A DNA stretch of 64,000 nt from Duganella sp. SG902 (lineage in GTDB: Bacteria > Pseudomonadota > Gammaproteobacteria > Burkholderiales > Burkholderiaceae_D), in assembly GCF_013376005.1 (NCBI RefSeq), contig NZ_JABMJK010000005.1, positions 372,001-436,000 on the forward strand, in the 5' to 3' direction. The notes beneath the pieces were generated by a model. That model searched no databases and was not told where the DNA came from. It saw nothing but the letters and a program-made list of their open reading frames with translations. Positions 45,155 to 49,043 of this stretch are shown one piece after another. How positions within the stretch are numbered: position 1 is the first letter of the stretch; every line of letters begins with the position of its first letter. The position numbers were made by a program, and so were the translations under genes.

Positions 45155-45218
45155 GCTTGGCCGGGAAAAACGACGCGGGATGCGATAATAGCGCTTTGAA
45201 TGTCTTATATTGCCTTCC

Positions 45219-46292
45219 ATGCCACAATTTGCCCCGCTGAAGAATGACACTTTCCTGCGCGCGTTGTTGCGCCAGCCTACCGACTACACGCCTGTGTGGC
45301 TGATGCGCCAAGCTGGAAGGTATCTGCCTGAATACCGCGCTACCCGCGCCAAGGCGGGCTCCTTCATGGGCCTGGCCACCAACCCGGACTACGCCACCGA
45401 AGTCACCATCCAACCGCTGGACCGCTTCCCGCTGGACGCCGCCATCCTGTTTTCGGACATCCTGACCGTGCCCGATGCCATGGGCCTGGGCCTGCATTTC
45501 GTCGAAGGCGAAGGCCCGAAGTTCGAGCGCCCGCTGAAAACCGAGGCCGACGTGCTGGCCCTGCGCCCGCCGGAAGCCGGTTCGCTGGACTACGTGTTCA
45601 ATGCCGTCACCCAGATCCGCACCGAACTGAACGGCCGCGTGCCGCTGATCGGCTTCTCCGGCAGCCCGTGGACGCTGGCCTGCTACATGGTGGAGGGCGA
45701 AGGCTCGCGCGAGTTCCACACCATCAAGAAGATGCTGTACAACCGCCCCGACCTGATGCACCGCATCCTGGACGTGAACGCCAAGTCGGTGGCCGATTAT
45801 CTGAACGCGCAGATCGACGCCGGCGCGCAAGCGGTCATGATCTTCGATTCCTGGGGCGGCGCGCTGGCCGACGGCGCCTATCAGACGTTCTCGCTCCAAT
45901 ACATGCAGCAGGTGGTTTCCCTGCTCAAGCGCGAAAAGGACGGCGTGAAGATCCCAGCCATCGTCTTCACCAAGGGCGGCGGCCACTGGATCGAGCAGAT
46001 CGCCGATATCGGCGCCGATGCGCTGGGCCTGGACTGGACCGCCAACCTGGCCAAATCGCGTCAGCTGGTGGGCCATAAAGTGGCCTTGCAAGGCAATCTG
46101 GACCCGGCCATCCTGTTCGCCAGCCCGGAGCAGATCACCGCCGAAGTCCACAAGGTGCTGGACGCCTTCGGCGCGGGCAGTGGCCATGTCTTCAACCTCG
46201 GCCACGGTATCTCGCAGTTCACCCCGCCGGAGAACGTGGCGGCCATGGTGGAAGCGGTGCACAGCTACAGCAAGGCGCAGCGCGCCGCCTAG
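45219..46292 (+). CDS. hemE: Uroporphyrinogen decarboxylase
   Basis: A 357-aa HemE from the ATG at 45219 ([19 protein letters not shown]). A TTG 9 bp upstream is in frame but has no better support. The substrate loop [19 protein letters not shown] carries the invariant Arg residues, [14 protein letters not shown] the catalytic Asp, and [16 protein letters not shown] the second signature. It makes coproporphyrinogen III in haem synthesis. It is preceded by the palindromic element and followed by a strong terminator. Confidence 0.97.
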
Positions 46293-46310
46293 CCTGTCCT
46301 TCCTTGCCGG

Positions 46311-46345
46311 GGCACGTTCCGAGCCGGAACGTGCCCTTTTTCATT
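46311..46345 (+). terminator. Rho-independent terminator of hemE
   Basis: GGGCACGTTC pairs with GAACGTGCCC around a short loop and is followed by TTTTT, about 20 bp after the hemE stop. Confidence 0.9.
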
Positions 46346-46370
46346 GGTGCGAACGGACTACCCGGAGCGA

Positions 46371-46572
46371 CTTATACACAAATTTTTTTGCTGCGGAAAT
46401 AATAGGCAGCGCTTTTTGGCTAGCCCCGGAAAATATTGCAAGTAATTGATTTATAAAGATAAATTTCGTAGCTCATCAGGTAATATCTGGCAAGCGGTAA
46501 ACCCGCCCGCTAAGCTTCATCTGGTTTATTTCTTCATTTTCCACAAAGTTATCCACAAAAACTGTGGATAAA
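46371..46572 (+). repeat. DnaA-box module 1
   Basis: It begins with CTTATACACA, passes through TTTTTGGCTAGCCCC and CAAGTAATTGATTT, and ends with an inverted box pair, TTATCCACA and TGTGGATAA, spaced by AAAAC. Module 2 repeats these landmarks in the same order. Confidence 0.6.
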
Positions 46573-46807
46573 AAATAAAATGACTTAGTAAACCGTGACT
46601 TAGCCATAATATTGCTGTTTTTCTTTAAATTCATGTTGCGTTGCACGATTTTTAGGCAAAAATAGCAGGCTTGCCAAGCTCATTATCAAAGCACAAAGCT
46701 TGGTCCCCGCATAAGTATAAAATTTGGTGTCTTTGTGCTGTGCAATATGGTGGATAAGCCCCCAAAAAGTGCTTGATTTCGACAAAAAATGCATCCTAAA
46801 TACTTCA

Positions 46808-46997
46808 CTTATGCACAGCCGGAGCCGAGCGACGGCGATTTTGGCTCCCCTAGGAAGCATTTTCCAAGTAACTGATTTTAAAGAGAAAAAATTTTGATTT
46901 TTTGCCCGGTTTACGATGATATCCACATGCATGACGATGCTTTCCGGGCATTAAGTTTTCATTGTCCACAAAGTTATCCACAGAAACTGTGGATACA
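46808..46997 (+). repeat. DnaA-box module 2
   Basis: It begins with CTTATGCACA, then ATTTTGGCTCCCC and CAAGTAACTGATTT, and ends with CCACAAAGTTATCCACAG followed by AAACTGTGGATAC. The closing 37-bp segment differs from that of module 1 at only a few positions. It ends about 30 bp before the priA start. Confidence 0.6.
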
Positions 46998-47027
46998 TAC
47001 AGCATCGGGATTTTCGCAAGGTGCAGC

Positions 47028-49043
<2,016 letters not shown>

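Follow-up and report, generated by a model that had tools for sequence, protein, structure and literature searches.

The gap between hemE and priA in Duganella sp. SG902 appears, from its DnaA boxes and IHF sites, to contain a DnaA-IHF regulatory element of the DARS/datA class in duplicate rather than an origin, and the element would most likely serve to drive ADP off DnaA, a reading to which we give a probability of roughly 0.5. Within each copy, a core of the DARS type seems to be joined to an IHF loop like that of datA, because the offsets of its three-box core (A, B and C) match those of DARS, while the spacing of its outer box X, IHF site and box A matches that of datA. DnaA bound to the head-to-head pair B/C and to box A would form an ADP-DnaA complex as at DARS, and bending of the DNA by IHF would allow DnaA on box X to meet this complex on the core. 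ADP would then be released from DnaA and ATP-DnaA would form, by which initiation might be timed. Since the locus appears to be origin-proximal, the element would be copied early in each replication round.

Anatomy of the hemE-priA gap

The stretch of DNA that was analyzed (the window, 64 kb) corresponds to C5:372001-436000 of a 6.8-Mb genome in 47 contigs, and its PriA shares 96% identity with the Duganella rivi protein. Exact DnaA boxes (TTATNCACA) begin at 46372(+), 46549(+), 46563(-), 46809(+) and 46974(+), and there are no others in the window (shuffle mean 0.52; none of 100 shuffles reaches five). Five further boxes with one mismatch lie within 46371-46997, at 46537(+), 46749(-), 46919(+), 46962(+) and 46988(-). 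The initial annotation had drawn attention to these five exact and five one-mismatch boxes, and they are indeed far above chance, both in the shuffles and under a first-order Markov model of the gap, which yields 0.03 exact boxes per gap and five in none of 2000 sequences. The gap is also AT-rich, as had been noticed, with 42% GC vs. 58-67% in 2-kb steps of the window.

The boxes belong to two modules, and the proposed duplication is borne out by repeats that stay in register at an offset of 425-426 bp: 46526-46570/46951-46995 (89% identity), 46433-46452/46859-46878 (85%) and 46414-46431/46839-46856 (78%). In either module, a box X(+) is followed by a minus-strand IHF consensus site and then by a trio of boxes with the layout A(+)-3 bp-B(+)-5 bp-C(-). 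The inverted pair that was said to close each module is found in both as B(+)/C(-), head to head. The X-B distance amounts to 177 bp (module 1) and 165 bp (module 2), and the arms X-IHF and IHF-A measure 58 and 85 bp in module 1, and 47 and 84 bp in module 2. New relative to the initial annotation are the IHF sites, the precise layout of the three boxes and a hairpin resembling a terminator at 46309-46337. The features are as follows:

45210..46292, plus strand: hemE, uroporphyrinogen decarboxylase (TIGR01464, 432 bits), the upstream neighbor in Burkholderiales
46309..46337, plus strand: terminator-like hairpin after hemE, an inverted repeat with a 13-pair stem, a 3-base loop and a T-rich tail
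46372..46380, plus strand: module 1 box X (TTATACACA), exact match, in its place in the conserved geometry
46439..46451, minus strand: module 1 IHF consensus site (AATCAATTACTTG on the minus strand), 0 mismatches to WATCAANNNNTTR, 85 bp from box A, at the same position in relatives
46537..46545, plus strand: module 1 core box A (TTTTCCACA), 1 mismatch, assigned by geometry, in the place of DARS box III
46549..46557, plus strand: module 1 core box B (TTATCCACA), exact, assigned by geometry, in the place of DARS box II
46563..46571, minus strand: module 1 core box C (TTATCCACA), exact, assigned by geometry, in the place of DARS box I
46809..46817, plus strand: module 2 box X (TTATGCACA), exact
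46865..46877, minus strand: module 2 IHF-like site (AATCAGTTACTTG on the minus strand), 1 mismatch, 84 bp from box A
46962..46970, plus strand: module 2 core box A (TTGTCCACA), 1 mismatch
46974..46982, plus strand: module 2 core box B (TTATCCACA), exact
46988..46996, minus strand: module 2 core box C (GTATCCACA), 1 mismatch
47028..49043, plus strand: priA, replication restart helicase (TIGR00595, 565 bits), next to which the element is retained in other families

The gene assignments made earlier for this neighborhood are supported by profiles: besides hemE and priA, there is an ArgP/LysG-family regulator, matching above the cut-off of one of three models, and a Rep-type helicase, whose score falls below the equivalog cut-off. 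Both IHF subunits are encoded in the genome. The hairpin after hemE may insulate the element from hemE transcription. No structured-RNA match at gathering scores was returned by Rfam for the hemE-priA gap.

Comparison with E. coli DARS and datA

The trio offsets of both modules are those of the E. coli DARS1 and DARS2 cores (III-3 bp-II-5 bp-I inverted). The corresponding E. coli trios were located at bioD-uvrB and between rppH and ygdT. The former is presumably DARS1, given the trio match and the location of DARS1 at bioD-uvrB. The latter is taken as DARS2 because it is flanked by the two primers that were used to delete DARS2 boxes I-III (PMC4585315), and because two IHF sites 3 bp apart, as PMC4245941 describes for DARS2, are found in its sequence. 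In PMC5742627, DARS1 and DARS2 are described as equally spaced, with box I opposite to boxes II and III, and the head-to-head pair I/II is presented, there and in PMC10380432, as an essential hallmark of DARS. The core in the window is identical to this arrangement in order, orientation and spacing, with the box I counterpart, C, inverted in both modules. As in DARS2, an IHF site of the same orientation lies on the same side of the core, here with 0 and 1 mismatches. The match of the trio to the DARS cores is why a DARS-type function is placed ahead of our first reading, datA.

Other features set the element apart from DARS. The IHF-core spacing, which is 74 bp in E. coli DARS2 and 83-86 bp here, differs by about one helical turn, and counts against the DARS-type reading. 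DARS2 has an inverted box at -185, whereas the box X found here is plus-oriented and at a fixed phase. Unlike the E. coli elements, which lie at mutH or bioD-uvrB, the present one is beside priA, is duplicated and origin-proximal, and its box I counterpart (box C), which the window itself possesses, is lost in some relatives.

The X-IHF-A spacing, in contrast, fits datA, which also speaks against a DARS-type function as the best explanation. E. coli datA reads X(+)-56 bp-IHF(-)-84 bp-box(+), and in both cases two same-direction boxes flank an IHF site of the same orientation; module 1 (X-58-IHF-85-A) agrees with it to within 1-2 bp, and the left arm here is 58 or 47 bp with 84-85 bp on the right to A. 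If the element were of the datA type, bending by IHF would join X-bound DnaA head-to-tail with DnaA bound to A and B, leading to hydrolysis of DnaA-ATP and shutting initiation down after origin firing. A function of this type, which we consider unlikely, would also agree with the location, as datA is origin-proximal in E. coli (PMC5742627), and the hemE-priA locus appears to be so, too. However, the next box after the right-hand one in E. coli datA, 12 bp away, is inverted, no A-B-C trio was found in the E. coli datA stretch examined, and the window has retained the head-to-head pair that is a mark of DARS. The genomic settings differ as well, E. coli datA being located by glyVXY/queG. As a candidate for datA box 7, a weak box that precedes datA box 2 by 12 bp was considered and discarded, since it does not agree with the published placement of box 7 at the yjeV promoter.

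The kind of element is already known, given that DARS-like sequences occur in many proteobacteria according to PMC5742627 and PMC10380432, and part of the present finding may therefore be in print. A duplicated, priA-linked form with box X did not appear in the literature searched, nor did any paper on an element of this kind at priA; that search does not extend to the original description of DARS (Fujimitsu 2009).

Conservation in Burkholderiales

Conservation was assessed at the best 80 PriA matches listed, 77 of which have a readable hemE-priA gap (L048, L051 and L063 are without one). The X-IHF-B pattern, with at most three mismatches in all, occurs on the priA strand in 77/77 gaps, compared to 0 on the opposite strand, 0 for the reversed pattern and 1 in 1540 Markov shuffles. 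The initial annotation had named a lack of box conservation in relatives as part of what would speak against its origin reading, and the opposite is the case: the array is conserved. These locus counts, and likewise the sequence counts below, are not independent, because several loci come from the same or nearly the same species.

Grouped by organism name, the pattern is present in 52/52 Oxalobacteraceae-like gaps (two copies in 41, three in 1 and one in 10), 17/17 Alcaligenaceae-like gaps and 8/8 gaps of Cupriavidus, Ralstonia and Pandoraea, with one copy each in the latter two groups. In our best reading, the element was duplicated within the Oxalobacteraceae. Boxes A and C (at most two mismatches) are kept together in 47/52 Oxalobacteraceae-like gaps, and with them the head-to-head pair, a point against a datA-type element. 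The same two boxes are found in only 2/8 Cupriavidus/Ralstonia/Pandoraea gaps and in 0/17 Alcaligenaceae-like gaps, with X, IHF and B kept in both groups. Box C is missing in 6 of the 8 former and all 17 of the latter, which counts against a pure DARS element. The fact that X, IHF and B outlive box C in the Alcaligenaceae-like gaps favors the datA type, which is therefore kept as a rival.

These observations allow for a bolder proposal, which we put forward tentatively and regard as improbable: the priA-linked element might be an ancestral composite switch of the bacterial class, in which a datA-like loop (X-IHF-A/B) and a DARS core (A-B-C) are united within 220 bp. In E. coli, the functions would then have been divided among datA, DARS1 and DARS2, which lie elsewhere on the chromosome, and the Alcaligenaceae would have dropped the DARS half through the loss of box C. 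If true, one and the same element could turn DnaA in either direction, according to IHF and to the boxes occupied. The element would also allow one to examine why box I has been dropped in some lineages.

The geometry also emerges when cores are picked regardless of X or IHF. In a set of 125 sequences, which includes 20 stretches of 2300 bp from same-family genomes as well as near-duplicates, 129 trio cores were found in 88 sequences. Within the stretch scanned, there are 97 exact IHF sites on the minus strand, all of them 83-86 bp from A, compared to 1 exact site on the plus strand. Similarly, 125/126 exact plus-strand boxes fall 152-185 bp before A, compared to six exact boxes on the minus strand. 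The X positions cluster at 152-154, 162-167, 172-176 and 184-185 bp before A, i.e., with a step of about 10.5 bp (resultant 0.77; 0.74 at 10 and 11), and this helical-step spacing leads to clear predictions for loop geometry. An IHF-anchored consensus displays little conservation on the X side.

Another possible use of a box cluster is plain titration, in which high-affinity boxes near the origin soak up DnaA. The presence of five exact boxes in 611 bp would be in line with it, as would the enrichment of boxes near oriC in E. coli (PMC12371093). However, a fixed box order, an IHF site and helical phasing are all conserved and none is needed for titration, which argues against a simple sink and makes this explanation very unlikely. 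The suggestion of a datA-like sink controlling priA thus holds in part: a DnaA-control locus beside priA is supported by the conserved boxes, the IHF site and the core, and the simple sink is not. As a side observation, the genome has 68 exact boxes, and 23 of them are on C5 (0.5 Mb of 6.8 Mb), which resembles the origin-proximal enrichment reported for E. coli (PMC12371093).

Occurrence in other families and at other loci

Across the class, which we take to be Gammaproteobacteria in the GTDB sense, an X-IHF-B pattern with gaps wide enough for E. coli datA matches 49/369 genomes, and its reversed control matches 0. Despite this latitude, the geometry of the 49 matching genomes is narrow (X-to-IHF gap mostly 68-70, IHF-to-B gap mostly 96-98), and boxes are present at the places of A and C. 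At 13 of the 30 pattern-match loci examined, one of which is the window's own, priA is the adjoining gene.

A family sample was chosen without regard to the element: from 60 genomes, one per family, 50 regions were obtained and 49 were readable (L279 is without a priA frame). The trio is present upstream of priA, on the priA strand, in 20/49 of these other-family regions, with 0 on the opposite strand and 0 for the reversed trio. The 21 cores in this sample all have an exact X at 167-189; an IHF match (at most one mismatch) lies 80-87 bp from A in 14/21, and 7/21 have none in place. No trio was found upstream of priA in 29/49 sampled families, which weighs against our preferred explanation, and the region upstream of E. 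coli priA has no trio and no exact box, only one site with 1 mismatch.

The control of DnaA nucleotide state by chromosomal sites has been worked out mainly in E. coli. An element of exact geometry in 77/77 Burkholderiales gaps and 20/49 other families would provide ready test sites across the class, and would tie replication restart (priA) to initiation control.

The association with priA raises the possibility that the gap is a regulatory region in which DnaA and IHF act at the promoter and tune PriA levels with the replication cycle. Several observations favor this: the proximal core (module 2) ends 31 bp before the priA start codon, the orientation of the core relative to priA is constant in 20/20 regions of the sampled families, 13 of the 30 pattern-match loci adjoin priA, and the upstream gene varies whereas priA is retained. 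On the other hand, the same geometry is also found in elements between convergent genes, whose names derive from profiles: aroE/dctM in L206 and L207, hemW and an RssB-like gene in L217, and uup and an AraC-like gene in L224. Such copies at other loci argue against a mere priA promoter. Moreover, box B is 394-485 bp before priA in the Cupriavidus gaps, the distal ones of the two or three Oxalobacteraceae copies are about 450 bp or more away, the genome of the window has a further element at C23:25325-25521, and a promoter scan of the gap is no better than chance (3 promoter-like sites vs. 1.5 expected). Regulation of priA as the function of the element is therefore doubtful, although the steady adjacency and orientation favor some link with priA. 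In L205, an element of the same geometry is located next to aroE, away from priA.

In the window's own genome, six trios are found at up to three mismatches (reversed control 0), with 1 and 2 mismatches for the two in the window. The element on C23 has the complete X-IHF-A-B-C arrangement, which makes it the third in this genome, and is located upstream of a PAS-domain gene; a weaker trio is nearby at C23:26569-26603. Upstream of xseA (exonuclease VII large subunit), C12:141750-142299 contains four exact boxes, all in the same direction, together with two trios that are weak (3 mismatches). Three exact same-direction boxes are also present at C5:263737-263943, in the gap that follows a gene which looks GlmU-like from its sequence.

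The origin question

An AT-rich gap with dense DnaA boxes, IHF sites and replication-linked neighbors could also be the chromosome origin or a relic of one, and the initial annotation had named the origin among its readings. It had proposed cumulative GC skew as a check, and the minimum on C5 falls at about 274 kb, not at the array (418 kb), although the skew is shallow and 452,427 of 497,427 bases were covered. DnaA-trio motifs beside a box are a mark of oriC, and none of TAGTAG, CTACTA, TACTAC or GTAGTA occurs in 46293-47027. Modules that resemble oriC and carry DnaA-trio-like motifs are instead found elsewhere in this genome, about 170 kb from the array, and in relatives. In one of these, G030, the sign of the skew switches from the 300-kb to the 320-kb stretch, with the priA boxes at 246.5 kb and oriC-like modules at 277.7 kb. 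The skew of G028 does not separate dnaA from hemE-priA, which are about 95 kb apart, and that of G026 is noisy, with no clear switch. As the skew is weak, the evidence against an origin is good but not final. On the skew and the missing DnaA-trio motif, the origin reading was set aside as extremely unlikely: the hemE-priA array is probably not a replication origin, and the preferred reading remains that of two DnaA-IHF elements of the DARS/datA class.

The two oriC-like modules on C5 are located at 247555-247722 and 250549-250717. In each, a minus box and a plus box are separated by 159-160 bp, and TACTACCACTAT and an AT-rich block come after them. The hemE-priA element shares with E. coli oriC and with the Oxalobacteraceae oriC-like modules the combination of DnaA boxes and an IHF site in AT-rich DNA. 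In the oriC-like modules, the boxes are divergent, with a separation of 124-160 bp, and TACTAC-type repeats and an AT-rich block come next. The hemE-priA element differs from them in that X and B point in the same direction and TACTAC-type repeats are lacking. Paired oriC-like modules can also be read in G028, G030 and G033, and box positions suggest one in G026. In the window's genome, dnaA is on a different contig from these modules, with one exact box nearby upstream. Because two such modules are present, oriC itself is likely duplicated, at the C5 modules and on another contig than dnaA in this draft. The two modules flank a PAS-GGDEF-EAL gene.
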